Source of the DNA: Tubulanus polymorphus
Taxonomy: Eukaryota > Nemertea > Palaeonemertea > Tubulaniformes > Tubulanidae
Assembly: GCF_964204645.1 (NCBI RefSeq)
Contig: NC_134027.1
Location: 7,986,485 to 8,050,484 of the forward strand
Direction of reading: 5' to 3'
Length of the DNA stretch: 64,000 nt
A program made the position numbers and the translations under genes. The notes under the pieces are model-generated. The model was not told where the DNA came from. It was given only the letters and a program-made list of their open reading frames with translations, and made no database searches. Positions 417-31,402 of this stretch are shown piece after piece. Within the stretch, counting starts at the first letter, position 1. Every line of letters begins with the position of its first letter.

Positions 417-3400
417 TTAGTAAGTTTCGAAATCATACGAGCGATATGGGTCCCTAATGTCTCTATATTGCTTACTTTGGAAATTAGCGATCGTTACTGT
501 GGCGTAGATACTATTTCCATCTGCAGTCGTGCTTGGGGCACTTTTATTTCCCGAAAATCTTTCCCTCGAATATATCGAAATATCATCTTCTTGGGTTACG
601 TTAGGTTTGTTGTCATTAGATGGGGGTTTGATGCAATGTGTTGTAACGTCTTTCGAATAATCAGAAATAATTCGGTTGCTGAGCATCTTGACTTCAAAAT
701 ATCCGTCACCATCTTCATCTTGTAGTTGAGGGGTTGATTTAGTATGGAAGTACCCCGTTGAACTTTCGCTAGGACTGGTGACTTGCATGTGTGGCTCTCC
801 AGTTCGGGCTGTCGCGTATGAATACTCCACGGGTTTATCATCAAAGATACGACTTTTATTTGCTAAGGGCTGGTCTTTCGGTTGAGGTGGAGGAGGGGGA
901 GGAGGAGGAGGGAAAGGAGATAGCAAAGCCGTCAGATGATGCGAGATCAATTCACCCGCGGGGCGCTTGTTAAGCTTTTGATTTATCGGTGTAATGCCAG
1001 GCTCACTCAGTTTTCTATCAAAAGTCAGTTTTTTGTTTTGTCTATCCAGGGAATTAGATTGTCCCTTCCTTGCTGCTTCCTCTGCCGATGCACTTCTGTT
1101 GAGAGTGTGGCTCTTCAGTGGAGATGATAACGAATCCTGTTTCTGTTGCCTTTCGAGGGAATTGCTTTGACTTTTCTTTAATGGTGGGGCGGGAGGAGGA
1201 GGTGGGAGGTTTCGCCTCGAGCTAGTGATAACCTTTGGCGGTGGTGGAGGTATCGGGTCGATTGAATTGTTATCGGATCCATGCTGTGGTTGATTGATAG
1301 ATAATGATCGATTCGCATTATCGGCTGCAGCATCACCTGTGTTTCTTGTAAAAACCTTACTCCTTTCGATAAGTTCATCACTAAAACCCGTCACTGGATC
1401 CGGATATTCCTTTGAATTATTAGCTCTGGGCAGACTACTCCCCAGATTTTTGCTGATAATTTCCCCAAGTGATTTTACGGATCCAACTGTTTCCCTATTC
1501 GAACTGTCGTTACCCTTGCTACCAAAGCTTTTTGGTTTAACGGTTAATGGGGGCAGTGGTCGAAGGTTTTCAACGTCACTTTTCGGCTTCACAGGAAGTG
1601 ATGGCTTTACGCTGTCCTTTACGACGTTCGTTTCTGTATCTTTCAAACTATCATTGCTCGCCCTTTTAGGCTTCGGTTCGGTTTTGTTGTTGACTACGGA
1701 GACATTCTTACATTTGCCTTGTGGAATCGGATCAGAAATCATAAAGCGTTGTTTCTCTGCCGTGGCCCGAATTGCTTCGTGCTCACTTTCATTAGCTTGG
1801 GCGCAGGTTGAAAATATGTTACAACCTGGCGTCGCAGATGGCCTTTTCTTTGAAGTCTTTTCTTCAAAAGCTAGACTTTTTTTCTGCAATGCTGAGATTT
1901 GCGTGTCGTTTGATTCGAATAATTTTGCCGTTCGTAAAACGTCTGGTTTTTCTATGGGGTCTGTAGAATCGCTGAGTCTTGGGGGTTTAGGTGGTGGTGA
2001 TGATGTATCGTTGGAAAATTCAGTTGCTTGTACAAACGGAGTATTTACATACGGGTCTTCTGTAAAGAAAATTGAAATACACCAACCTTGCAACCTTTGG
2101 TAACAAAATTACACACTACTAAATTACTAATGAATATGCCTTTACCGACGCATGAAATTGCAGATTTTAAGTTCTTGACATCGACGTAGGGGTCTTCCTC
2201 ATCTTCAGAAACTTGATCTGCCAAACCGAAGTTCTCCATCAGTTTTAACTCGTTTTTAAACATTACATTAACCGTTCGATGCACAAGAATATACTGCTCC
2301 TGAAAGACGAGAAACATGAAAATAGAAAGATAATCTATCTCGCAGATTTTGTTGTCCAACCATTGGTTTATGATTCTATACTTTACCAGAGTTTGAACCA
2401 TGGCTGGTCTTTGTTCCCGCAACGACCTAACCATGTCGTAAATAGTGAAGTCATCGTCAATCATCTGAAAAATTCATGAAAATCTTTGATCAAAAATAGC
2501 TGAGAGTCATTTGTCCGATTTCTATCGTGATAAAGAGTTGATGATTATAGTTGTGCGATTCCAAAATGTTATCATACGTTGTTATCTAACAAATTCTTGG
2601 CGTAGTCGATTGTTATTATGGTTCCTGTTCTGCCACACCCAGCACTGTAAAAAGATTTTGAAATGTATATATGTAAAATAAAAGACTTGCGTGCAACAAC
2701 CGGTATGAAATATATCGCACTAGGGCTTATCATAGTCCCAGAAAAGCCCGTTTTTGATACGATAACGAACCTGCAATGAACTAAGATTGGAACACCGGGA
2801 ATCCGGAGATTTGATACGTTGGCCAGCATATCTACAAGCGTTACTAGTGAATCCGGTGCCTTCTTATCAGGCCAGCTGATGAAATGGAATTGAATTAATT
2901 CTCTGACTTCGCCGTCTAATTTCATACTCAGTGTCCGCACTGCGTAATGCTGACTAGGCCATTCGGCATTTTTCTGAAATCATAATTGACACCCACTATA
3001 TAACAGCAAAAAGTCATAGAGGTCTGATAGTGCTGATATATCATGGATTCAAGTTCCCTACCAGCGTTATCGTTATGTCAGCAAATACTAACATTTCGTC
3101 ACCCTCGGGCCAATAACGTTCACATTTTTTCTGGAGAGAAAAAGAATTCGCACGATTTTCATCGAATTCGGTATTCAATGAAATATTGGTATCAACAAAA
3201 TGGAAACCGCATTCAATTCTCTTTTTACCATTGATTCGTTACATATACTCCATTTATGTGTGTAATTTCCTTATTGTATTGTTTTCGTACAATCAAATCG
3301 TGCACTGATTTCAGTATGAACGATTGAGCTATCATATCAATTCACAGTTTAAAGCAAAATCATGAGACTCTGGCGACTACAGATATCTATTTCTCATTTG

Positions 3401-4454
3401 TACCTTAACTTTTCCATCTACGATCTCCTCTTCTTTTCCAGCCATGATCAGGATGTTGACTTTATACTGCCAGATCATACGCCAGAAATCACCAATAGTA
3501 TTAGGTAGAGGCCCCTGTGCTGCTATGTACCCCATATTGCTAGACATACCCTGTCAAATATACATAAGAAAATATCAAAGCTCTATAATAACGCTTAGAT
3601 GATAAAACGTAGGCCCAAATTGCGATGGGTATAGAATTATATGTACCTTGATACAACTGGCGTTGATGTAATCTGTATTCGGTTGGTTTTTGTACGGTTT
3701 TAAAATGACTCTAGTGTTATCAACTGTAAAAGATTGGATTACAATATTTTCGATGATATTCCGGTCACCAATGCAAGATAAACCGATACAAAATCAATGC
3801 TCACAAGGAATGATATCCCTGAATCTGTTCTTGTACTGGTTTTCTTCTAGTTTGCCGCATCTACACGGAAAATTACGTTCGTCTTGTCGAAGTTCAGCGC
3901 TGAATAACTTCAATTCCTAGAATGTAGTTTCATTCGAAACATTATTTACACATGATCGGCAAATATATACGCGTATATATATATTTATATTCAATCAAAA
4001 ATACACGAAGACTCTTTATGTATTTTTGATATAATGATTTCTAACCATAATATCATATCGGGGTAGGGAATCAATCGAAAGAGGAAGTTTTCCTTTGCAA
4101 ATACTGGGACTCAACGACATAAGTTATTTCTAAACATATGCATAGCTGTATACATATAGAGAAATAGAATATGTAGTTATATCTAACATAGAGAAATAGA
4201 TATCATTTTCCATAATTGTATACGACGGATAATATGCGGCGTGGTTCACACACTACTTACAGGCTACAAATCGAGGAATGACTTCATATTCTAATACCAA
4301 ACAACCCGACAACCTGATTTTGATTATTTCTTACTTATGCCAATTTTTGAATGATGCGTACCCTGTAGTCGCAGATATATCCCCGACAATCTTCGGCTTC
4401 CAAATCTCCGACATATTCCACGAACAACTCTAGATTCGTCTTCATTGACTCCAT
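417..4454 (-). CDS. PTPN12: PTP-PEST-type cytosolic protein tyrosine phosphatase (PTPN12/18/22 family)
   Basis: Ten exons join in phase: 4362-4454, 3805-3916, 3647-3723, 3404-3550, 3062-3130, 2771-2973, 2578-2644, 2387-2464, 2146-2299 and 417-2059. They encode about 880 residues. The catalytic domain is complete: NRFRDIIPFDNTRV, DYINAS, YIAAQGPLPNT, KKCERYWP, the WPD loop in FHFISWPDKKAPDS, the P-loop VHCSAGCGRTG with nucleophile near Cys233 (split by an intron), and the closing EQYILVHR helix. The last exon encodes a disordered tail of roughly 550 residues with proline runs and a SPPPKPPR motif shared with vertebrate PTP-PEST. Such tails bind SH3 and adaptor proteins at adhesions and the cytoskeleton (family knowledge). 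The start Met is the first ATG after an in-frame stop and resembles the PTPN12 N-terminus. The closest vertebrate paralogue (PTPN12, 18 or 22) cannot be settled by eye. Confidence 0.93.
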
Positions 4455-5710
4455 GTCATAATCACGGTTTGAATATGCACGAGACTTCGGTCGATACAGC
4501 TATTTCCGAAACCAGGAAGATCTCGGTAATATGTAAAACATATATATCATTAAAATAATTGTCCATATAGCCGGGAAATGCATATCTATTTATATTGTGT
4601 CACGTCTATTCCCTGTGCGCGCACTATTTTACAATGTTACTACTGAGTTTACTATAGTTATCTTATACCATTTATATGAAGAATCCTATGATGAATTGCG
4701 AAAAATTTCCTTCGAGCTAATGATCTTTCTCGTTTTATTGGTGTGGGATTCTCTATATATATAAATCGTTACAACACTAAATAATGTTTCACCGATATCT
4801 ATCTTATACCATTATACAAATGGATTAATCATTATAGAAGTTATCAGATTAGAATTAATGAAAATTTGGCGCGAGAACGCTATAAAATTCAAAGGATGGA
4901 ATTTTACGGGTATCAAATCTATGATCACTTGTCCTAAGTGAAACCTTTTGTGCGGCCATAAATGCAGAAATATCAATATGCGTGCGGCAATAAGCGAGTA
5001 CCAAACGCGCGCGTCGTGACATCGCGCTGAAACTCGGACAATATGTCTTCATTTCCGGTGGGATGCGAGTGATTACTAAACGATCAGGTCAGATCGGCAA
5101 TAAAATGTCGATGTCATAATTAGCTCCAAACGAAATCAGTAATAAATTGACTTGTAAAGCACGTGTAAATGTGTTCAATAGCATTGAAATTCAAGATGTA
5201 TAATATGTTTGATATCAGCATCTAATGGTTAACTAGAGAGTTTAAAATACGTAAGTTGAATGTCAATCTCCGGGAATAACGATTACAATTTTAAGACGTT
5301 CCTCACTTCTCGAAAAGGAAAGGTTTTAACTCATTGTATCGAAATGATCGATGATATCGGCGATGTCAATAGCGCGCAACGTTTTCGATTTTAAATTAGC
5401 AAACGGTTTGTCATGGTTGTCGTCTATATTGTGAATGCTATGATTAAAGATGACATGTTTCTCCTAGACTTCTGCTTATATATTTTCATCGAAAGGATGG
5501 GTTTTTAGGTGTTCTTATTTGACGAAGTGATTCTAAACTACACTAAATTATGTCTCCATCGAGTGACTAAACGCTAAACGCTAAATTGCGTGTTGTATTT
5601 TGCCTGTCTTGGTTTTGTTTGTACCCTGATTAGTAGCTTTAAGGTCTGCGCAGTGACGAGGGTAATTACGAGCCGTCCTATCAATCAGTACCGGTTTTAA
5701 TTGAATCGTT
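4455..5710. other. Intergenic region between the divergent PTPN12 and Pox neuro-like genes
   Basis: AT-rich non-coding DNA. It should hold the PTPN12 5' UTR and promoter, since that gene is read leftwards, plus distal regulatory DNA for the Pax gene on the right. No clear TATA box, repeat or RNA gene was recognised. Confidence 0.4.
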
Positions 5711-5719
5711 CCCCCCAAC

Positions 5720-6000
5720 TTGACAGGCAGGTGCTGCGCGAGATTACCCCAACGACGAAATACTGCTACATATCAATAAACGCTCGTCAAAAATTTATGA
5801 AGATTTGGTACAGATAATAGGCCGTAGGAAATGCGCCTATTTCCTGCCGTGAAGAAGATGATCCGGCCCGGTGATTGGTTCCAACGGGCGTTACGTCACG
5901 TGTCGAGTGGGCAGGTGTCTTTCGGGTTGGGTGATGGTACTTCATAACTTGTCACAGGGAATAACTAAGTTGCGGACTGCAAGTGGTTTCAGCATGTAAG
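5720..6000 (+). promoter_or_regulatory. Probable promoter and 5' UTR exon of the Pox neuro-like gene
   Basis: This short GC-richer stretch in an AT-rich region contains an inverted CCAAT box (ATTGG, 5874-5878), a CRE-like TTACGTCA (5891-5898) overlapping an E-box CACGTG (5897-5902), and two CAGGTG E-boxes (5728-5733 and 5912-5917). A GTAAGT donor near 5996 could end a non-coding first exon spliced to an acceptor near 6180. The motifs are seen directly. Promoter function, and any proneural bHLH input through the CAGGTG sites, is inference. Confidence 0.5.
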
Positions 6001-6211
6001 TAATACCGTCTTTATAGATTTGTGTTCTAGCGATGAAGTAGAATAGCGTCTTGAATTGAAAAACAAAAATACTCAAACAAAATGTACGCAGTTGTGCAAC
6101 TATTTTCACTAAAACAACAAAAACTGCGTTTAAAAGGAGTTTTGCAGGAAATGTGAATAAGCTTTCATTTTTCTTTCAGATTTCAGAACGGAAATTCCGC
6201 ATAAAATCCAG

Positions 6212-7483
6212 ATGCCGCATACAGGTAAATATCACAATCTGTGATTAATTAGCAGGTTTTTCATGTTTCATTAATCTGGGTAAATCGAACGCCAATTCGT
6301 TGTATCTTGGTTTCATTTCTTATTTCATGATAATCAAATATTTCTCATCATTCGTACGATTTATTCTATACCGGAAGTCAGGATCGGTCATAATTTCAAA
6401 TCTTTCTAATTCTTCAATCGGGGGGTTAAATGATCATAAAACTTGTACTTATGTAACGATTCGCTTATTTGCAGGCCAGACGGGAGTTAACCAACTGGGC
6501 GGTGTATTCGTCAATGGTCGGCCGCTACCAGACCACATCCGACGACGAATCGTAGAACTAGCTCATCTAGGAGTACGTCCGTGTGACATATCCCGCCAGT
6601 TACTCGTATCGCACGGTTGCGTCAGTAAAATACTAACGCGTTACTACGAAACCGGTTCTATCAAACCTGGATCGATCGGTGGCAGCAAATCAAAACCTAG
6701 GGTGAGTCTTGAATAGAATAAATATGACTAAATATTTCGGACAAATTATGAACCTCATCGCGTATTGATTAGAATTGGTGTCCAAATCGTTGAATGATTC
6801 GTTAAAATTTCAGAATGAATTAATGAATCTATCATTTTTCCCATTTTCTCGTTAAAATCTCAGAATTATTGAATGAAGTTATTTCGCATTTCAAAATGGG
6901 CTTATTTGACGAGGGGATTTTCTCAGCTGATTTGATGGGGATTGATAACTTCAAAAATAAACGGCCCGTTTTGTTTTTCATTTAGACTTCATGCACGACT
7001 GCACGACCAATTCCGGATGTTCCTCAGCCCCACGATCACCAAACAATTGCACAAAACCAGCAACTATCAAGGAAACGACTAGCTGACATTATTCTTCTAG
7101 AAAATACGACACCACCGCCTGAAAAAATATCCAAGTTAGATAACGTCGATCCTACATATAAAAAGGACGATAACACGGAGCAAAAACATGGAGTCGAAAC
7201 CGATCATTCTCCCGATATCACGGGCACCGCTACGCAGGCCGCAAAACTGGTCGATACAAATATTGTTAAAAAGATGCTTTCCGAATCAAAATCACCAGTG
7301 TTACCCACAAGCTTGTGTCTTTACCCGCGAACTACGCTGCCGTATCCGCATCTATTTCCGACTGGGCTCCGACCGTTTTCCATTCCGCAATATCCGTATT
7401 TGACGCCGCTTATGTTAGACTTACACAACCGGTATATGGCTGCCCAGGAGAGGGTAGCTTTGCGGAAAACCTGGAGTCCATAA
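6212..7483 (+). CDS. PoxN: Pox neuro-like Pax transcription factor with only the PAI half of the paired domain
   Basis: Three coding exons, 6212-6224, 6475-6701 and 6986-7483, join in phase to give 245 residues. The start [14 protein letters not shown] matches the Pox neuro N-terminus, including the tiny first exon. Exon 2 encodes the PAI subdomain through [16 protein letters not shown] and [10 protein letters not shown], with the Pox neuro-type QLLVSHG. PAI is the N-terminal DNA-binding helix-turn-helix of paired domains. The reading then runs straight into a tail ([12 protein letters not shown]) and never encodes the RED subdomain normally following IGGSK; the 284-bp intron contains no RED-like exon. 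The tail has SRKR, LL and PEK spaced as in the conserved motif late in Drosophila Pox neuro. No homeodomain or octapeptide is visible, as expected for Pox neuro. A separate RED exon spliced from elsewhere cannot be excluded. Confidence 0.88.
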
Positions 7484-7603
7484 CTGCACTTACTGTCGCT
7501 GTACTCATAAAAACTTATTTGTCTGGAAAAAAACTGTGTTCATCTGAGCTGGTCGAAAAATGCGGTTTGAATCGAAAGACATATACCGCGGAGTATCCAC
7601 GAG

Positions 7604-7609
7604 AATAAA
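7604..7609 (+). terminator. Polyadenylation signal AATAAA of the Pox neuro-like gene
   Basis: An exact AATAAA lies about 120 bp after the stop codon. The convergent minus-strand gene ends immediately to the right (stop at 7675-7677), so the two 3' UTRs probably abut or overlap. Confidence 0.55.
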
Positions 7610-7674
7610 CACATGGAATTCTTAAAATCGTCTTTATTACTTCTGAAGATTTCTTCTATGCTTTTTTTCGATGA

Positions 7675-9666
7675 TTACTTGCCGAATCTTAATGCATATT
7701 GGTAATAATACATGATGGTTCTATACCACATTGACAATTCTTCTACGGAACTATCCAACCAGAAAGGATGCTGAAATGAATGATTTTCAAAATGTGATCA
7801 TAACATCTATGGATATTTAATTCTTTGCTATATAAGTTTAAAACATTAAGTTATGACCATTACCGTAATATTCATCAATGCTGGCTCATCAGTACAATAC
7901 AAATCTGGCACAGGCGGAATTTTTTCTGCGTCGGTTTCATATCCGTACATTTTCCTGTCAATTTTCATTGTCACTGTAGAAGAAAATACCATTTAGTTTC
8001 ACACGCCTATCCAATGTGAATTGATCATTTGGATATTGCAAAACAATTTTTCAAGTTGGAAGTTATCGAAGAATAAAAAAGTACCCATGTTCCATTTTGA
8101 ATCTACGTAGAATCTTAACGGATGGCAATTTGATCTGTTGTACCAAGCCCATCCTTGGGCCATTTCGGGCATGTTCGGTAACTTCAAGTCAAATTTATCT
8201 TTATCCCTTATCGGCTGTCTATTGGGGGTCGCTGTATCGGCTTAAGAGAGGAAATGTGAGAAAATAGTCAAAATTTTGAAGGGGCTTGATAATTACTGAC
8301 ACACGTCAAAGATTACTAACCTACGTTACAGCGATACGGATGTTGTCGCGGATTCCAATCGTTCGGGTCTTTCTCCCAGGTTGGAATTTCAATGGGTACA
8401 CAGCTTGGAAGTATTCCTGGCATAATCAAAGATGCCTTGCCCTATAACACACAAACATGATTCCCTTTGTTTTTTGGGGGGGAATTTGCAAAAGTGATTT
8501 GAACTTTATATTACCGTCTTGAAGTCATATACAGTACTGGATACGAGGTAACCCCTTTGCGGGTCACTAACATTCACTACCCAAGTTGCGTTCTCAAAGT
8601 CGTGTACTTCACTACAAACAAATTCGAAGAAAAGTCAATTTCGTTACAAAACGGCTGAACAAACAATTGAGTTCGCCCCGGATTGGTCTACAGGGGGTCC
8701 TGCATATTTACTGCAAGATCGTAGGGAGTCGTCACCCGTGTCACGGAGGTTCCGAGAAAATTTGAACCGTGTTGCACAGTTGCCTATTGAGATCTTTTAC
8801 AAGAGACTCAAATAGTTCTGATTTCATAATAACACGTATGTGTATAGTTAAAATTGATACTACATGCTAATTAGTAATTGTTGCCTTGATTCGTTCGTAC
8901 CATATTCGAAAAGTAGATCATAGCTGTCCATAGTTTGGTTCAATTAGAATTCTGAATAGAGGCTTTCATAAATGACTAATTAAGTTGGATTACCAGAAAC
9001 CATAATGTTCCATTCCATTATCTGGGGTGCATTTCTGTGATACGCGCGGATATCATAAATTAAAAATAACTATAGACGAATGTATTTCTCGTCATTACCA
9101 ATGAACGGTGGAAGTGAAGAGGTAAGTTTCTCATAGCGTATGAATTTATTCCTGCCGACTTAATACCTATATAACAAATATCCGTTGCTTGCGCACTTAA
9201 AGCAAATCAATTAAATTAAAAAACCATATTAGTAACATATGAATTAAAAGGGGCTATAAAGAAGCGCAATGGTTCAATAAGAAGATCTTTAATTCCACAG
9301 ATGGGCGTTGTCGTATTTGAATTCATGTAACATTCTCATGGTTGTAGACACATTCAGTGTCTTCTGTACATATTTCATCAGCATTTCATTACCTGAATCG
9401 TGGGGATTTCGACTGATTACAGTAAATTTCAAAATTAATCTTTTCCAAGTATCACGAAGGATATCTATTTACCTGAGCCAGAGCATCCATCGATTCCAAC
9501 CATTACGGTCGTGTATTTCGAACATCATCGACGACTCGCTAGACACGGTCGGCCAATTGTCACAACCGCAATAGGAATATCTGCTGTCCGTCGTCGAAAA
9601 TAACGCCCCAAAAAATACGACCGCGCACAGAGACGCTTTCATCGCGACGAGGAGTAATGCGTGCAT
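7675..9666 (-). CDS. Secreted protein of unrecognised family, paralogue 1
   Basis: Six exons join in phase: 9473-9666, 8515-8611, 8330-8441, 8085-8240, 7864-7973 and 7675-7770, giving about 254 residues. The N-terminus (MHALLLVAMKASLCAVVFFG) is a signal peptide; an inner Met at 9642 is an alternative start. The mature chain contains HDFENATWVVNVS, STVYDFKTGKASLIMPG, SCVPIEIP, GWAWYNRSNCHP, IPPVPDLYC and a C-terminal WYRTIM. Cysteines and N-x-S/T sites fit an extracellular protein. The neighbouring gene at 10185-12693 has the same exon phases and the same motifs, which confirms both models. The YDF...C-I/V-P-I layout loosely recalls ependymin-related or LolA-like secreted beta-rich domains, but not enough to assign. 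The exon 3 donor (GTAACG) was chosen by phase and is less certain. Confidence 0.78.
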
Positions 9667-10184
9667 CGTATACTCATCAATATTAGATAATGGTCTGAGC
9701 TTCTTCTTTGAACGAATCATTCTAGCACGGGGCGATAACGGAACAAATGCGTTTTTCACAAATTAATTAGTTTTGATATATACTGGGAGATATGATAAGG
9801 TGTCTGTTCTGTGTAGTTATTTGGTGGATACAAATAGAGTTCTACTGAATAAAGTCTGCTAATTTCACATGGAAAAAGTTCAATTTTCATATTATCGTGT
9901 CGTTATCAAAATTTTTTTCACTTTCTTTATTAACGGCATTCTAAAAAAATTCTTAAAAGCGTTATCATTGACTTAAGCAATCGAAATTAAGATATTTAGA
10001 ATCCTTCGATGCGGAATAACCCTGTATTCCTCATTGAAACACTAGTATCCGTCATAGTATCCGTCATCCGTCATACTCCTGGGAGTCTTCCAACTTTAGA
10101 AAAAAACATCGTTCGCAAATCATTGGTGTCCGTTTTCGTTCATACGGCTTATTAAACACATGAAAACAAAACTAGAGCGAGCAT

Positions 10185-12693
<2,509 letters not shown>

Positions 12694-13060
12694 GTTTTGG
12701 ATGGTGGTGTGAAACGTTTCTCAAGCTACAATCGGCCGACTTACAACTGCCTTGTTCACACGATTCATTTTACTTATCAAAACGTACGTTTGACGACATA
12801 ATCACAGCGAACCTTCAACCCTATTCCGTTACCATTATTCAAGATTGCAAAACCTTCTCCTAGAAACCTATATTTTTGGGGAAATATCTTTTAAACTATC
12901 ACTATGTTGTTATTCTCAGGACGTACGCATACATTATCAATTGAAACGAACTTTTTTCTATTTTTTCAAGGTAACACTAAACGTTTTTGTGACTTTGGCG
13001 CAGTGTTTGATTCCGTCCGGTTCGTAATTGGCTGAAACCCATCGTAGTAACTACACGAAA
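12694..13060. promoter_or_regulatory. Probable bidirectional promoter between secreted paralogue 2 and TMEM121-like A
   Basis: A 367-bp spacer separates two divergent start codons. A clearly similar spacer sits at about 16940-17305 between the broken third secreted-protein copy and TMEM121-like B, so this block was duplicated with its genes. No TATA box is obvious. Confidence 0.45.
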
Positions 13061-14207
13061 ATGGCTGACGGGGGAACCAATCATTGTGAGCTATTTCTTA
13101 TAATTTTGTGTTTGCATATTCATCTTCTTCTATTACGGTACATGAAAAACATTCAAAAGTCGTTTTGTTCTTATTTCAGTTAGAAAAAGAAGTCGACAGA
13201 TAATATGCAGCGTTGCAACCGTTCTTGTAACTGTTGCTCAGTGTATTATTCTAGATATGTTCATCTTTGAATTTAGATATTTTCTTCCGTGTTATTATTT
13301 ATTTTACGTCGCAGACGTTCTTGTTGTTTTACTGCTTATTGCGGCATGCGCGATGTCTTCCGTGTACTTCATAAACGAAACAAAACCCTTCGATAAATAC
13401 GGAAAATGCACCAAATTCCTCGGATACCTACCACTAGCGAGTTTATCCTGGTTGGCATATGCTACTGTGATGATTGCGAAAATTGCAATCGCGTACAAGT
13501 ACTTCGCGAATTTGGCTGAAAACTCCGAATCCGAATTATTCTCTCCGAGAACATTGAAATTCACCATCGCTGTGTCGGCACCTATCCTTCAACTGATGTT
13601 CTTCAGTCATTATAATCCATCGATGTTAAAGGATGACAAAAAATATGAGAATAAAGAAGGAAATGTAAAGATCTTTGCACTTTTTGCTGCGGTAACATTT
13701 GACATTCTAGATAGCGTCGAGTTCATGGAGGTGCTTTTCGTTCAAGAATCTAATACAACTTCAAAATTCAGTTTCAACCTGGAATGCTCGATATTTGCAT
13801 TTCCTCTGATTGGTTTCATTTTGCCTGTTTTGCCGTTACTAATCCTAAGCCATACATACGTATGCATATCGGAAAAAAGTCAACCGAAGCAGCAGAAATT
13901 TGCAATAAATGCAAGATTGGGGCTGCGGTTCGTTCACTTATTGATCTTTATATTGTTGATCAATATCCCGTTTTTTGTGCTAAGGGTATATTTGTGGGGG
14001 AAGATGCATTCGGACCTGTCAGCGTTTGTCATGAAGAACGTGATTCTGATAGTTTTCGGTCTTCGCGAAGTTTATATGGCGATCGTTGAATTGATAAATA
14101 AACAACGTGGCGCTAAAAACCAATCAAATGAGAGTGAATCTGAACTGAAAGAACTTAACGAGCCCAGTAAACAAACTGATGATCCTGAGAGGCACGCAAA
14201 TGTCTAG
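13061..14207 (+). CDS. TMEM121-like multipass membrane protein A
   Basis: A short first exon (13061-13085, MADGGTNH) splices in phase 1 to a long exon (13180-14207), giving 350 residues. Several hydrophobic segments are visible, roughly CSVATVLVTVAQCIIL, YYLFYVADVLVVLLLIAA, WLAYATVMIAKIAIAY, FALFAAVTFDILD, FPLIGFILPVLPLLIL and VHLLIFILLINIPFFVL. Similarity to vertebrate TMEM121 lies in the N-terminal membrane segment, the F..DILD motif, the LP..LS loop, and the end pattern S.FV.KN after the last membrane helix. TMEM121 biochemical function is poorly known. The C-terminus is charged and probably cytoplasmic. The protein is closely related to TMEM121-like B at 17306. Confidence 0.82.
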
Positions 14208-14699
14208 TATGAACAAGGCCTTGAGATCAACAGAACGCTTATTTCCATGTTACCACATGTTATACAGTGGCTTTCATGGATCATTCGTCTTGCTAAAGAC
14301 ATGCATATATTCATAGCCCTTGAAAGGTTCTGCCGATGTTATTACATATTTTCTTCTGCTTTGATTTCAAACGATCAATTTTCACCATAGGATAACAGAA
14401 TTTTGTTTATGCATAATGATAAGTACTCGTTATATATATGTGAATATCCTTACTTTAAGCCGAACTCACTAACTGTGAATCGGCAAGTATTTGTATCCCA
14501 TGATCTTTTTAAATTTTTGTATCTAAGATCAACCGTTCAATATATTAAAACTGTCTGCTTGCGATAGGAATCGGCCTCGTGTTTTTCTTTTTCGTAGTAA
14601 GCCGGAGATAGGCCTATCCGTTTTGGCATGCGCAGGCGAAGAAGCATTCGGCGACTCCCGCATGCAAGTTGTGGAAAACAACTACGCTTGCTAACATTC
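14208..14699. other. 3' flank of TMEM121-like A
   Basis: AT-rich non-coding DNA that is also present, diverged, after the other two TMEM121-like copies (for example the motif around the CTAGTATGAAC string), so it is part of the duplicated unit. No separate gene is supported. Confidence 0.5.
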
Positions 14700-15200
14700 A
14701 GAATGAATAAATGACATTCAGAATGAATAAATGAATTTATCAGTTTTCCCATTTTCTCGTTAAAACCTCAAAATGAATGTATGAATTTATTTTGCATTTC
14801 GAAATTTTATTATATGATAAAAGGATTTTTCTAAGCTGATTTCATGGCCTCAAAAATAAACCGCTCGTTTTTTTCCATTTAGACTTCATGCACTACTGCA
14901 CGACCAATTCCGGATGTTCCTCAGCCCCTCGATCACCAAACAATTGCGCAAAACCAGCAACTATCAAGAAAACGACTAACTGACATTATTCTACTAGAAA
15001 ATACGACACCACCGCCTGAAAAAATATTAAAGTTAGATAACGTCGATCTAACATATAAAAAGGACGATAACACGGAGCAAAAACATGGAGTCGAAACCGA
15101 TCATTCTCCCGATATTACGGCCAACGCTACGCAGGCCGCAAAACTGGGCGATACAGATACTGTTAAAATATGCGTTCCGAATGTGATTTATTTTTCATAG
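14700..15200 (+). pseudogene. Duplicated fragment of Pox neuro-like intron 2 and exon 3
   Basis: Closely matches 6790-7275: the end of the Pax intron, its acceptor (…TTTAG at 14882) and about 290 bp of exon 3, starting [14 protein letters not shown]. The copy stays open to a TAG at 15198-15200 but loses the remaining C-terminal part. It has no paired-domain exon nearby, so it cannot make a Pax protein alone. It marks the left edge of the duplicated segment that continues to about 18.9 kb. Confidence 0.88.
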
Positions 15201-16077
15201 TGGAATTATTTTCACTCACGTAGATATTTCGAAGGCGATTTATTTTTATATAGCGAAATAATCCATATTCACGCATATACATGTATTTTGAAGGCGATTA
15301 TTTTCATAAGAAAGTTATTTCCTCTTTACGAATTATTATATTTACATTTGGGGAGTTCTTCAATTTTAGAAAAAAACACACTTCGGAAATAATTGGTGCC
15401 CTTTTTTGTTAATAGGGTTTATAAGAAACACGAACAAAAACTATTGAGCAAACATTTGTTTATTTCTTCCTCATGAATATTTCATAATCATTCGGGGACA
15501 GTTGATAATTTCACGATCTGACCCAGCCTATGTGCATTCTGAAACAAAACCAAGACATGACTCATGATTACGACTGATATGATGCTCGAAAAATCTCGTT
15601 CTAGATATGCAAATTAGCAAGTATCTGTACTTGGGGGAAATACCGTAACAGCTTGTTTTCAAATGGTTAAAGATAAATGTTCACTGGTTATTGGTGTCAT
15701 TCTCTGCTCGTCCAGCGATCAGGTAAGTTTAAAAAAAATGAAAATATTGTGAAACCACACGCAATAGCAGTCGTTCATAATACAACAACATAGAATTGAT
15801 ACATTTTCATTTCAAAAAGTAGGTAACCTCTGATTAATCTATCTGATTTACAAAGTTTTTTTCTGTGTCTTTGTTCAGTATAATTTTTCTACTTACCTGA
15901 ACTTCCCATTTCGGTGCGTTTGTACACCATGATGGGGAAACAGCTCTGAACTTATTGACATCAGTGATATGTATACTTTTTCACGGTCTTAATCATTTTC
16001 ATTCCACCCCTACGTGAATAAAAGGAAATAAAGACAAAATACAACAATTGAAGGTTGTTGGTATTATACGTTGGTAT

Positions 16078-16679
16078 AATAAACCATTTTACAGTTGCTA
16101 GCCGCCGTAATATTTAAACCTGATACTCGTACCAACAATTAAAACCATTTTCCGTAGAGACAAGTGTAGTGAAAATGAAGAAATAACTCCCATATACTGA
16201 AATACACGCAAAGAAAACAGCGCCGAATCTCGGAATGACAATACACGCGCTGCAGTTAAAGAGCCATAGGAAAAAAACTAGGCAAGATATCTTAAAATTT
16301 CAAAGTTCACCTAAAAGGGGGCATTTATGCGCACAGTGCTTGAAATGTTTGGATTTTTTAGAAAATTATTTCTGAAAATAACGAACTTCAAATTCAGTAC
16401 CCTGGATTTCTATGCGCACGGCAAAAACTGAGCACCGATTTTTATATCGCTCTCATGTCGCATTGTTGTAAATTTGAGGAATGATTTTAACATAACCGAA
16501 AACTAGAGATTCACGCGGTTTGAATGTTGCTGAAGTTGTCAAAATCCATCCATCGACAGATGAAATATGATACAATACACATCACGGATAGTTTTTAAAA
16601 AAGAGAAAAAAATGACCCAACAATACGGGACAAAAGTACCCTAACAAAATGGCGGCTAGCAACTGTAAAATGGTTTATT
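16078..16679. mobile_element. MITE-like element with 29-bp terminal inverted repeats
   Basis: The left end (16078-16106, starting AATAAACCATTTTACAGTT) is the perfect reverse complement of the right end (16651-16679). The 602-bp interior has no meaningful ORF. It sits inside the broken secreted-protein copy and is absent from the corresponding intact gene, which shows it is an insertion. No clear target-site duplication was found, so the superfamily is unassigned. Confidence 0.82.
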
Positions 16680-16884
16680 CAATTGTACTTTCATATTCGT
16701 TTCTGCTTTTATATATTTATACTAAAAAGTAACGGATCGTCGATTGATCGAATACACTGTAGGGTGAATTTACTTGAGTTTTAGATTCAATTCGTCCCCA
16801 TTGATAAAGTCATGAATTTCCAGATGTAAAGAAGACTCGATCTGCACCAAACCGCCATCGCAACAACTATACCTTGCCTCTAAT

Positions 16885-16916
16885 CATGGACGTATAAACT
16901 AGTTTATACGTCCATG
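16885..16916. repeat. Perfect 32-nt palindrome in place of a signal-peptide coding segment
   Basis: CATGGACGTATAAACT is followed directly by its exact reverse complement with no spacer. In the parallel gene the same position encodes the signal-peptide core, so the palindrome replaced roughly 30 bp. A templated fold-back repair event would explain it. Confidence 0.95.
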
Positions 16917-17305
16917 CTCTGATGCAAAGTGCGACTTCCTATTTTGGATGGTGGTGTTAAACGTTTCTCAAGCTACAAGCGGCCGACTTACAACTGCCTT
17001 GTTCACACGATTGATTTCATTCAACAAAACGCACCTTTGACAACATAATGACTGCGAACCTTCAACCCTTTTCCCGATACCATATTTATGATATTACAAA
17101 ACCTTTCTGGAAACTTATATTTTCGGTAAAATGTCCTTTAAACTATCACTATATTGTTATTCTCAGGACGTACGCATACATAATAGATTGATAAATACAA
17201 TTTTTGCTGTATCTTTTCAAGGTGACACTAGAGTTTTTGGGACTTAAGCACAGTGTTTAATTCTGGTTCGGAAGAGGCTAAAACCCATCTAGTAACCTCG
17301 CAAAA

Positions 17306-18675
17306 ATGGCTGACCCCAGAACCGATAATTGTAAGCTATTTCTTATGATTTTGAATATCATGCTTGAAAATTCATCTTCTTCTATTACGGTACGTGAAAC
17401 AAAAGTTATTTTGTTCTCATTTCAGCTGGAGAAGGATATCTGAAGATTCGACAGATAATATCCAGCGTTGCAACCGTTCTTGTAACTGTTGCTCAGTGTA
17501 TTATTCTAGATATGTTCATCTTTGAATTTAGACATTTTCTTCCGTGTTACTATTTATTTTATGTCACAGACGTTCTTGTTGTTTTACTGCTTATTACGGC
17601 ATGTGGGATGTCTTCCGTGTACTTCATAAACAAAACAAAACCCTTCGATAAATACGGAAAATGCACCGAATTTCTCGGATACCTACCACTAGCGAGTTTA
17701 TCCTGGTTGGCATATGCTACTGTGATGATTGCGAAAATTGCAACCGCGTACAAGTACTTCGCGAATTTGCTTGAACACTCCGAATCCGAATTATTCTCTC
17801 CGAGAACATTGAAATTCACCATCGCTGTGTCGGCACCTATCCTTCAACTGATGTTCTTCTGCCATTATAATCCATCGATGTTAAAGGATGGCAAAAAACA
17901 TGAGAATAAAGAAGGAAATGCAGACATAGGACATGGGAATGAAGAAGGCAATGCAGACACAGTACATGGGAATGAAGAAGGCAATGCAGACACAGTACAT
18001 GGGAATGGAGAAGGAAATGCAGACACACTACATGGGAATGGAGAAGGAAATGCAGACACAGAATATGAGAATGGGGAAGGAAATGCAGACCCAGAACATG
18101 GGAATGAAGAAGAAACTGAAAAGATGTTAAAGGGTAGCAAAATTGATGAGAATAAGGAAGGATCAAACGTAATGATCTTTGCACTTTTTGCTGCGGTAAT
18201 GTTTGACATACTAGATAGCGTTGAGTTCATGGAGGTCCTTTTCGTTCAAGAATCAAATATCACTTCAAAAATGAATTTCAACCTGGAACGTTCGATTCTT
18301 GCATTCCCTCTGATTGGTTTCATTTTGCCCTTTTTTCCGTTACTAATCCTAAGCTGTACATATACACACGCATCGGAAAAGAAACAGCTGATAATGCGGC
18401 TTGTTCATTCATTGATTTCTATATTGTTGATCAATATCCCGTTTTTCGTAATAAGGTTATATTTGTGGGGGGAAAGGCATTCTGATCTGTCATCGTTTGT
18501 AATGAAAAACGGGATTCTGATTTTTTTAAGTATTTTTGAAGTTAAAAGGACTGTTAAGTTGTTGATAGATAAGCCAAGTGCCGCCCCAACGCAACGTGTG
18601 AGTAGTGACGCGGTTCAGTACACAGCTAAAAATCAGACTGTTAACTTGCCCGAACGAAGTGCCGCCACTACATAA
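17306..18675 (+). CDS. TMEM121-like multipass membrane protein B with an acidic 11-residue repeat
   Basis: Exon 1 (17306-17330, MADPRTDN) splices in phase 1 to 17426-18675, giving 424 residues. It is very similar to TMEM121-like A over the first half and keeps its membrane segments and the FDILDSVEFMEV motif. The loop between membrane segments 3 and 4 is expanded by six copies of an 11-residue Asn/Gly/Glu/His-rich unit (consensus NADTVHGNEEG). The C-terminal region differs from A in part and ends in a Ser/Thr/Pro-rich tail. The reading frame is fully open, so it may be functional. The role is unknown. Confidence 0.82.
17917..18117 (+). repeat. 33-bp coding minisatellite, six units
   Basis: In-frame tandem repeats within TMEM121-like B, each beginning AATGCAGAC and containing GGGAATG. 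Because the unit is 33 bp, copy-number change would not break the frame. The array is absent from copy A, so it arose after duplication or was lost there. Confidence 0.93.
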
Positions 18676-19009
18676 CCACCTGCGGGTGGGTCTGCAGACG
18701 ATCCTGGGCAGGGTTTGGAATGAACCAGTCTTGTATGAACAAAGCCTACGCTATTTTCCATTTTGATACCATACTTGAAAGCTGTGCTCACTGACTGTGA
18801 ATCAGCAATTTTTTGTGGCCATGGTTTTAAAATTGTATCTAGTATCAACTATTTAATACTAATAAATCTGGCGGCTTGCGATAAGAATCAGCGTCCGTTT
18901 TTTTTCTGTCTGTAATCAGCTTCAAGACATGTTCGGCATGTCTTGCCGCCGAGTCCAGTAGAAAAACAAGACCGTTGGGTTGAGGCGATTCCGGGCGCTT
19001 TACCAATAT

Positions 19010-19790
19010 TTCAATCAGTGTATTATTCTAGATATGTTCATCTTTGAATTTGAAACAGTTTATTCCGTGGCATGCGCGATGTCTTCCGTGTACTTCATAA
19101 ACAAAACAAAACCCTTCGATAAATACGGAAAATGCACCAAATTTCTCGGATACCTACCACTAGCGAGTTTATCCTGGTTGGCATATGCTACTGTGATGAT
19201 TGCGAAAATTGCAATCGCGTACAAGTACTTCGCGAATTTGGCTGAAAACTCCGAATCCAAGTTATTCTCTCCGAGAACATCGAAATTCGCCATCGCTATG
19301 TCGGCACCTATCCTTCAATTGATGTTCTTCAGTCATTATAATCCATCGATGTTAAAGGATGACAAAAAACATGATAATAAAGAAGGAAATGTAAAGATCT
19401 TTGCACTTTTTGCTGCGGTAACATTTGACATTCTAGATAGCGTCGAGTTGAAAATTTCAGTAAATTGAAAATGAAATGTGGCACCAACAACCAATCAGAT
19501 AATAAGATTTTGGGGTGCCTGATATTACAAGCTCTGCTTTCCTCTGGTTGCCCTGCTGTTATTTTACATCAGTTTATATATATATTGTATGAATCAAATT
19601 AATTATCTATTGTAATTTTGTCTGGTATTTATTTATTGATGTAAATTATTCAAGAAATAAATAAATAAATAATGGATCCGCCGAAGAAATGCAAAATCTG
19701 AATACCTGATTAAGCCCACAAACTGACGATTCCGAGAGGCGCGATAAAAATGTCTAGTATGAACCAGACCTTTTAAATCAACTGCGCCTT
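19010..19790 (+). pseudogene. Truncated third TMEM121-like copy
   Basis: Sequence highly similar to TMEM121-like A from the ILDMFIFEF codons to DILDSVE, but lacking about 50 bp near the start (the segment after FEF) and the whole 3' half. The frame ends at VELKISVN. Matches to copy A resume in its C-terminal tail and 3' UTR (near 19470 and 19690-19790), interrupted by about 180 bp of unrelated AT-rich sequence. No first exon is found. Confidence 0.85.
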
Positions 19791-20650
19791 TTCGATGTTA
19801 CCACGTGTAACTATGCGGCTTTCATGGTTAATTTGTTTGCTAAGACATTCTTTCATCTTGATAGGTTAAGTCGATTTTATTCCATCCACCTGCTTGATTG
19901 AAAACAAGTAATTTTTACCATAGGATAACAAAATTGTGTTTATGATATTAATATTAGCCTAAAAATGAAAATGATATAATAAAAATACTCATTATATACC
20001 CCGGTATGTGTTGATTGTCCTTACTTTATAAAACTATGTTCACTAACTGTAAATCGGCAAGCATTATCAGCCATGGCCATGATCTATAATTCTTTTATTA
20101 TCTAAGTTCTACCATTCGATATAATAAAATAGCCTGCTTGTGCGATGAACTCGTCTTGTTTTTTTTTTCTCTTATTAAGCTGTAGCAATCCGCTTGGCGT
20201 GCGAAGGCCATTACGAATCTAGGACTCAGTCGTCTTGCATTTTCGCTAGCCTCACAGGGACTTGTCACAATTGATAGTCACCAATATCCAGTAACCAATA
20301 TCAATGACCAATATCAAAATTTATGTTTTTATTACACAGGGTTATCGGAGATAGTGTCGATTTGGTTCGAGTGACAATTAACATAGTCCCTATGCACAGG
20401 GCTCAATGTAGTGTGTAGGGCGTTTTATAAATTTTTCTATCTACAATTCGAATATATAATACAGAAAGGAAATTCCATGAATGGATCAATATATATCCTA
20501 TTTCGTTTACTTTTGGATACTTCAATTTTCCGACCCGTGAATTGTGGCACTAAGTATCGTACGACTTGGATCGATCCTGTTCCATGTTTTATTGTAAACT
20601 TTTTATTCATTGATCCGGTCCATGTGTCCGGTCCGTAGTATATACAACGA
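19791..20650. other. Intergenic region before SELENOK
   Basis: Its left part is still diverged TMEM121-like 3' flank (to about 20200). The remainder is AT-rich and should contain the SELENOK promoter. No gene was recognised. Confidence 0.4.
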
Positions 20651-28776: not shown

Positions 28777-31402
28777 GCTATATATAGACATGTATATATG
28801 TATGTGTATTGCATTTTTCAGATTTTGAACATGATGTTTCTCAGGATGAAAGCAATGTTCGCAGTAACTGTTCCTCGGATAACCTTCTTTTAGTTAATGG
28901 TAAGTGATAATATCAATATGATTGCGATCTTCTTTAATCAACGGAAATACAACGTATTTTTTAAACGTTTATTATCAATATTTGATCATTTTTTCAGGAC
29001 TGCCGGAACCTCCTAATGAAGAAACGCCAGACGAACAAAACCTCTCGGAGGACAATTCATCGGATAACTGTTCCTCGGATAACCTTCTTTCAGTTAATGG
29101 TTAGTGATAGTATCAAAATTATTGCTATTTTCTTTAATCAACGGAAATACAACGTTTTTTTTAAACGTTTATTATCAATATTCGATCATTTTTTCAGGAC
29201 TGCCGGAACCTCCTAATGAAGACCAAAAATTGAAAGACAATACGCCAGACGAACAAAACCTCTCGGAGGACAATTCATCAACGAAGACCAAGCCGAACTA
29301 CACCAAAGGTAAGCTTTTCTTAAATTCTTCTTCTTAATTCTATAGCATATATAAAACAACGCCGAATGATATCGTTCTTTTCTTATTAGAAATTTCAGAT
29401 TTTCTTGCTGAATCCGACGCTGAATCCGACAATGATTCTGCAATGCCTTACAACAGCACAGGTTAGTGTATACTTTATATACCGGTTTATCATTAGAATA
29501 GATGAATGGCTATATAATAATGAAAAACTTTTATATTTTAAAGGTATTTCACCGCCATCACCACCACAATTGAACGAGTCGATAATCGATGAAAAAATCG
29601 AAGCAATCACGTCGGATGGGTCACTCAAGGGGAGATTTTTAGACATTCCAGAATTAATCGCATTGATCAAAGAATCGAAGCCCAACAGAACCGACATCCC
29701 CATTGGTTCGAAAAACAATGCTGTTTTCGTTGTTGACAATTCGAAAAACATAACGCGCAGAAACGGTGGCAATATGAGCAAATATACTGACGACTGTGGT
29801 GTATGGGATAGAAAATTGTCATCAACAAAGAAAGTTTTACTTATGGTCGATGAACATGGAAATTATAAAGTATGTTTTCAATAAGATAAAATCAAACTGC
29901 TCCCCTTTAATCTAAACTTCTATTTGTATATGTAACTCAACATTTTAACATTTCAGATGATTGAATCAAAGAATGGATTATATGGTATCCAGAAGAAAAA
30001 GGAAGGATTTGTGCCGCTGGAAACGCAGCCATCTAAAGATTCCGTTTTAATTTTGCGTCGATTCTATACTACCCTAAAACGGAAAACGGATTACAAGAAA
30101 CGCGTGTCGTGGTTAGAAGAATTTCCGTCCACGTTCGATACTCACGTTAGAAATACGGCGATCGTTGAGTATCTAGGCGAAGCACCTCTGTTCGGTGTAA
30201 CGCACGGAAATACAAAAAAGGGGGTGGGGATTGATTATGTAAGGACAACTGACTCTGTAATGGAAAAGATTGCTGAAAAGTGCGTTACTCAGCCACCGCG
30301 CGATGTACATAATGAACTATGTTTGAACAGTTCGTTGCATGTTCCAAGAAACTTAAAGCAGGTTCAAAATGTTAATCATCGCGAAAAATCGAAAAATAAT
30401 AATGGACATAGGAAAAATGTCGCCGATGACATTCAACAACTGTTTAATATGCTTCATGAAAACGATTTTGTACGAGAAGTGTTCGCATTGAAAGGAAAAC
30501 CACCAATGGCTATTCTATATACAGACCAACAAATTAAAGACATTCGTACATTCTGTGTACAGTCTGGATCTATCCTTGGTGTTGACAGGACATTTAACGT
30601 TGGTGCGTGTTTTTTGACAATTACCGTTTTTAAGAATACACATTTACTTCGCCGGGAAACTCAGGAACACCCGATATTCATCGGCCCTCTGTTTTTACAT
30701 TGGGACGGGGAAACCGAAACCTATCAGCATTTCTTCGCACACATCAAAGGGAAGCTTGACTCGGAAGTCACAACGACTGAAATCGCCTACAGTGAATCTC
30801 TGACTTTCGGTTCTGATGAAGAAAAAGCGTTGCTTAAGGCGGTAAAAGAGGCATTCCCCTCCGCTAATCAAATATTGTGTTACCGGCATCTTATCGAAAA
30901 TGTAAAAAGACATTTGTTGCACAAAACTGGTGTCAACGATAAAGTTAAAGATAGAATAGTCGATGCGATATTCGGTAAAAGTGGAGCGCTGCATCAGGAT
31001 GACGAATTCAAATACGAACAAAAAATGATTGAAACAAAGGCAGACATAATGGAATCAGCACCAGAGTTTATAGCCTATTTCAACAAACTGGAACCGCGAC
31101 TAAAGCAGTATGTGTTCTTTCCGTCAGTCGTGAAAAAGGTCCATTCAATCGGTTGGACCAACAACAATTGCGAGACAATTAACAGTATCATAAAACTTTC
31201 AACCAAATGGAAGATATTAAAGATTCCGGACTTAATCGAGGAATTACATAAAATGGTGAAACTACAATATATCGATATTCGCAGAGCTATTCACAACCAA
31301 GGAAACTTCGAAATCGTATCAAAATTAAAAAGCTATACTGTCAGCCATGCCATTTGGACTCAAAAAACTGAAAACGATAAAAAAAAACTGAGAAATTCAT
31401 GA
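27833..31402 (+). CDS. MULE transposase with N-terminal PHD-type zinc finger, multi-exon
   Basis: Exon 1 (27833-27887, MAPLRKRKGKTTLQYPC) splices to 28538-28647 to complete a PHD-like finger (PCKVCLRECDEDAIECNAC, then WIHRKC). Acidic linker exons follow (about 28823-28900, 28998-29100, 29198-29308, 29390-29460), then 29545-29871 and the main exon 29957-31402. The main exon holds the MULE DDE core, numbered from its first Met: D210 in GVDRTFNVG, D287 in GSDEEKALL, a C308/H311 pair in CYRH, and E406 in NNNCETIN. The enzyme would cut and paste the element; the finger probably contacts DNA or chromatin (inference). The join from the PHD exon to the first linker exon is out of phase as read, so a small exon may be missed. 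The frame stops at a poly-A run; see the downstream tail. Confidence 0.8.
28026..28470 (+). pseudogene. Reverse-transcriptase fragment nested in the transposase intron
   Basis: A 102-residue ORF contains KYVDDILCLVNENVKIL, which resembles the YVDD catalytic box of retroelement reverse transcriptases followed by the usual helix; a later KFPF may be a remnant of the PFLD region. It lies within intron 1 of the transposase gene and is truncated on both sides. A LINE or Penelope-like origin is possible. The match is short. Confidence 0.45.
28869..29221 (+). repeat. 200-bp tandem duplication carrying one linker exon of the transposase gene
   Basis: 28869-29021 and 29069-29221 are almost identical, from CTGTTCCTCGGATAACC through the intron to GGACTGCCGGAACCTCC. 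This doubles the GLPEPPNE exon. The second copy has a weaker donor (GTTAGT in place of GTAAGT). Confidence 0.92.

Follow-up and report, generated by a model that had tools for sequence, protein, structure and literature searches.

Fly Pox neuro proteins start with MPHTG, and the eyegone proteins carry a homeodomain. Pox neuro specifies the identity of chemosensory organs in Drosophila (PMC6207628, extract). Its traits include a tribasic helix 1 and, in Drosophila, an exon border between the PAI and RED subdomains of the paired domain, and in molluscan Pox neuro the motif PGLSYP follows the paired domain (PMC5333810, extract). Proteins that keep only the PAI subdomain are reported from nematodes (PMC4901127, extract, citing Hobert and Ruvkun 1999), and such an architecture is therefore not new in itself. 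Loci whose Pax gene has a shortened paired domain are described in Drosophila, C. elegans, hemichordates and echinoderms, the extract of the source leaving unspecified which half is concerned (PMC4488758). In eyegone proteins, the PAI subdomain is shortened and fast-changing, and it is wholly missing only in the nematode ones (PMC4901127, extract).

The Pax gene analysed here shares with the Drosophila and lophotrochozoan Pox neuro the MPHTG start, the tribasic helix 1, the PAI subdomain, an exon border in the linker and the lack of any homeodomain that we could find. It differs from them in that neither RED nor the molluscan PGLSYP was found, and the homology of its tail is unproven. The PAI/RED border is an exon end in this gene, the exon 2/exon 3 junction in Drosophila Pox neuro, and the site of an insertion in lophotrochozoan Pox neuro. 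The nematode NPAX proteins likewise keep the PAI half only, but they belong to another phylum, are not assigned to the Pox neuro family in the extract and, in two cases, have an EH1 motif (PMC4901127, extract). An experimental Paired protein without RED is similar in architecture, although it was made in the laboratory and keeps its homeodomain (PMC4345280, extract). As in the eyegone-type Pax genes, the paired domain is partly lost, whereas the half that is shortened or lost in eyegone is the other one, PAI. An earlier note on this DNA had called the gene the opposite of eyegone; this is a little too neat, because eyegone outside the nematodes keeps a shortened PAI (PMC4901127, extract). We consider it likely that this gene, the only Pox neuro found in the genome, encodes a PAI-only paired domain through the loss of a RED exon.

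Layout of the gene

The window, that is, the whole 64-kb stretch of DNA that was analysed, spans 7,986,485-8,050,484 on contig C3; the animal genome to which it belongs comprises 268 Mb in 77 contigs. The exon structure described in the earlier note was confirmed by the reading frames and splice sites, the exons being 6212-6224, 6475-6701 and 6986-7483. The features of the gene are the following.

5961..5995, plus strand: candidate 3' end of a 5' untranslated exon, placed by eye with an arbitrary start; a donor GTAAGT follows 5995 and the acceptor ends at 6179
6212..6224, plus strand: coding exon 1, with the ATG at 6212, encoding MPHT plus the first base of the G codon; donor after 6224
6475..6701, plus strand: coding exon 2, PAI subdomain, ending with IGGSKSKPR (PAI/RED linker) in phase 0; donor GTGAGT
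6702..6985, plus strand: intron of 284 bp without RED coding; the acceptor TTTAG ends at 6985, phase 0
6986..7483, plus strand: last coding exon, a 165-residue tail with no known domain; stop TAA
7604..7609, plus strand: polyadenylation signal AATAAA

The joined frame of the three exons predicts a protein of 245 residues, consisting of the opening MPHTG, an intact PAI subdomain and the 165-residue tail. The first coding intron, between exons 1 and 2, is 250 bp long. The start, frame, splice sites, stop and polyadenylation signal were all intact. Exon 2 carries the tribasic helix 1 (RRR in HIRRRIVEL), and its donor lies directly after GGSKSKPR, showing that the PAI/RED exon border is present.

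Several other features were observed around the gene. On the minus strand, within 417-4500, a match to protein tyrosine phosphatase at 2572-2979 adjoins a proline-rich frame of 563 residues; the two apparently belong to one gene, whose extent was judged by eye, and which forms a head-to-head pair with the Pax gene. Beyond the polyadenylation signal of the Pax gene, open frames on the opposite strand look gene-like by eye. At 29936-31402, the product of an open frame resembles a transposase of the Mutator type (MULE).

The PAI subdomain and the search for RED

The PAI exon matched positions 2-74 of the 125 positions of PF00292 (E 1.1e-41; 142 bits, against a curated cut-off of 22), and it was matched by sequence by the Pax5 chain 1k78_A (E 9.9e-38). 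A structural model of the PAI subdomain, predicted from one sequence, had a mean pLDDT of 64, and 40 of its 75 residues scored 70-90. The fold matches with E <0.001 were the paired domains of Pax5, Pax6, Paired and Pax8 only. The TM-scores ranged from 0.40 to 0.66 and the rmsd values from 7.5 to 11 A, the large rmsd being due to the poorly placed ends of the model.

To place the gene within the family, the PAI of the window was aligned with five PAI sequences from the same genome and five fly sequences (11 rows, 74 columns). Of 73 aligned residues, the window PAI had 64 identical with fly Pox neuro, as compared with 50 to 61 for the nine other rows. The two grouped together at 92/84 and in 88% of 200 bootstrap trees, although the former value is just below the starred level of the tool and 40 of 500 label shuffles grouped equally well. 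Together with helix 1, which is tribasic, and the exon border between PAI and RED, this grouping upholds the Pox neuro-like assignment proposed earlier, as far as the genome sequence allows. The motif PGLSYP, known from molluscan Pox neuro only, was absent from the six frames of 5001-10000, and the animal may not be a mollusc. Pfam revealed no homeodomain in the tail, and a genome search for homeodomains, in which 150 of 170 candidates were scored, gave 115 matches with none in the window. On contig C6, at 5318228-5634747, ten Hox-type homeodomains were found in a row, from Post2-like to labial-like; their names, including Lox5-, Lox2/Lox4- and Post2-like, presumably point to a lophotrochozoan.

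As the earlier note had described, the PAI ends at IGGSKSKPR, the next in-phase exon is the tail, and the 284-bp intron between them holds no RED. No RED was found when the six frames of 6702-6985 were inspected by eye, and the tail gave no family match in Pfam at E up to 1. The RED profile and the tblastn queries were both made from five fly sequences. In the six frames of the window, the best match to the RED profile reached only 5.0 bits (E 0.46). The best tblastn match in the window comprised 20 residues at 56765-56706 of the minus strand (E 0.018, 40% identity), and we took it as a chance match, since it lies on the wrong strand and lacks the FAWEIR core. In the control, one fly PAI recovered the PAI exon with E 5e-42 by phmmer and E 1.6e-41 by tblastn. 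A RED hidden in the intron was thus rejected, both the six-frame reading and the RED searches being empty. A diverged RED inside the tail was also considered and rejected, with a whole-sequence score of -1.6 bits (E 0.12) and -4.3 bits for the best stretch. The complete paired domain with RED that marks a Pox neuro was not found, and PAI without RED, the mark of the nematode NPAX, was. As far as the genome sequence allows, a PAI-only product, as first suggested in the earlier note, is upheld by the lack of RED in the intron, the tail and the window.

In the whole genome, the PAX family gave nine matches (10 candidates scored) at six loci. RED was present at five of these, the sixth being the gene in the window, and an open frame crosses the PAI/RED border at all five others. 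Two genome-wide searches with RED only, at E up to 10, listed 8 and 7 places, all in the five other Pax loci; these searches score only first-look candidates, and a very diverged RED could escape them. An orphan RED exon elsewhere in the genome was not seen among the places listed, nor was a second Pox neuro among the six PAX loci. Judged by eye and from the PAI tree, the other five loci appear to be Pax6, Pax1/9, Pax3/7, Pax2/5/8 and a Pax alpha/beta-like gene (L023). The last label was assigned by exclusion; when Pax beta motifs were looked for in L023, PLDLS alone appeared, probably by chance, since it lies on the strand opposite to the gene with stops adjoining.

The Pax2/5/8 locus (L022, contig C4) contains two versions of a 198-bp exon, at 25659835-25660032 and 25660091-25660288. 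Both encode the end of PAI together with RED, share 54 of 66 residues, have the same phase and stand 58 bp apart; from their sequences, they are probably mutually exclusive RED exons.

It might be argued that the splice from PAI to the tail represents one isoform, with RED coming from an exon that is far away or has diverged strongly, as Pax genes are commonly alternatively spliced (PMC4488758, extract) and the Pax2/5/8 gene of the same genome has two RED exon versions. We regard this as extremely improbable. The six frames of the window contained no convincing RED, although a very diverged one could be missed, and the RED-like places listed in the genome, 8 and 7, all belong to the five other Pax loci. 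Moreover, the tail is followed by a polyadenylation signal and then by the opposite-strand frames that look gene-like by eye.

The tail exon and its second copy

The region 6809-20208 of the window is a tandem segmental duplication, whose second copy is decayed and whose third is partial. It carries TMEM121-like genes (PF14997) and small secreted-protein genes, the latter recognized by eye. The left breakpoint of the duplication lies inside the Pax intron, at about 6809, and part of the tail exon is accordingly found again downstream.

14717..15182, plus strand: second copy, within the tandem segmental duplication, that covers the final 177 bp of the intron plus ~300 bp from the start of the tail exon

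The intron part of this copy is 14717-14882; the initial 107 bp of the intron have no copy. The exon copy, 14883-15197, is open for 105 codons; its frame shifts near the end, and no PAI was found upstream. These two features suggest that the exon copy is probably a relic; its use as an alternative last exon of the Pax gene is possible.

A comparison of the two copies showed that 16 of 282 exon sites differ, as compared with 26 of 165 intron sites (Fisher p 0.0007), where the intron count omits 13 gap positions and the exon count ends at codon 94, ahead of a one-base indel. At third positions alone, 7 of 94 differed (p 0.056 versus the intron). The tail exon and its copy gave a dN of 0.046 and a dS of 0.103, and the resulting dN/dS of about 0.4 is equally expected from one constrained and one free copy. 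For 165 open codons in one given frame, the chance at the local stop frequency is ~1e-4, uncorrected for the number of places. Six stops each interrupt the two remaining plus-strand frames of the tail exon, and overlapping plus-strand frames of 112 and 87 residues were listed. On this sequence evidence, the tail appears to be a genuine coding exon. A fold predicted for the tail alone, which is weak evidence when made from one sequence, had a mean pLDDT of 54 with short helices at 22-25 and 29-33 and a C-terminal one at 141-161, and showed no three-helix domain.

The earlier note had taken the SRKR...PEK spacing of the tail as a sign of a real transcript. The gene unit itself appears real, as the divergence drops at the exon boundary, but the motif is a weak argument for it: 114 of 5000 shuffles of the tail matched the C-terminal motif of fly Pox neuro as well as the tail did, as did 162 of 2000 when SRKR was left out. 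The drop in divergence at the acceptor is the best argument against an assembly scar, better than the SRKR motif.

An assembly error, in which a RED exon between PAI and the tail was dropped from what is truly an ordinary Pox neuro, seems unlikely to us. If a deletion had begun and ended in introns, the result would look identical, and for the first 107 bp of the intron there is no second copy to serve as a control. However, the assembly has 77 contigs, of which the six inspected for length are 14 to 32 Mb in size, and at E up to 0.01, in a search that skips simple repeats, the intron has no match besides itself and its copy, leaving no repeat to prompt a collapse. In both copies, the last 177 bp of the intron run into the tail without RED; a collapse in this part is unlikely, since it would need two independent strikes, one per copy. 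Furthermore, the 8 and 7 places listed genome-wide include no stray RED.

We also give little credence to a recently damaged gene that is turning into a pseudogene, with RED gone and PAI yet to decay. The loss of RED removes half of a conserved domain, and the left breakpoint of the tandem duplication falls in the same intron. In contrast, none of the signals from start to polyadenylation is damaged, the PAI retains the 64 of 73 residues in common with fly Pox neuro, and the tail exon is better conserved than its intron.

Probable loss of RED and its meaning

We prefer the hypothesis that the RED exon was lost from a working Pox neuro. Since lophotrochozoan Pox neuro is described with PAI and RED (PMC5333810, extract), loss is the likely direction. 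An ancestral RED exon, in phase 0 on both sides, would have been deleted from the intron; because it would have been entered and left in phase 0, exon 2 splices to the tail with the frame unshifted. The duplicated stretch, starting at about 6809, is silent on a former RED exon between 6702 and 6808.

The gene product is probably still a transcription factor. It would bind DNA by the PAI beta-turn and helix-turn-helix alone and read part of the full Pax site, in a shorter and looser form, while the tail would contact partner proteins. In the Paired structure, PAI makes the main DNA contacts; in Pax6, the DNA is also touched by RED and the linker (PMC4901127, extract). Mutations in the N-terminal subdomain of PAX6 harm DNA binding more consistently than those in the C-terminal one (PMC11219921, extract). 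In flies, Paired retains most of its functions when RED is missing: it rescues the cuticle, segment-polarity expression and viability; these flies show a distorted adult cuticle and lowered fecundity, with no Acp26Aa or sex peptide (PMC4345280, extract). Since Paired has a homeodomain and Pox neuro does not, this tolerance of RED loss may not transfer.

Our literature search, outside which most subscription journals lay, found no PAI-only Pox neuro, and the PAI-only state looks new both in Pox neuro and in a lophotrochozoan. On balance, we lean towards the broader view that in a lophotrochozoan lineage the sole Pox neuro became fixed as a PAI-only gene. It would be a natural counterpart to eyegone that independently repeats the NPAX-like state, and would show that each half of the paired domain can be dropped separately in working Pax genes of different classes. 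If true, the gene would provide a natural test of the purpose of RED, without which a lineage may have managed in its Pox neuro, and the exon border at the PAI/RED linker would allow RED to be removed in one clean step.
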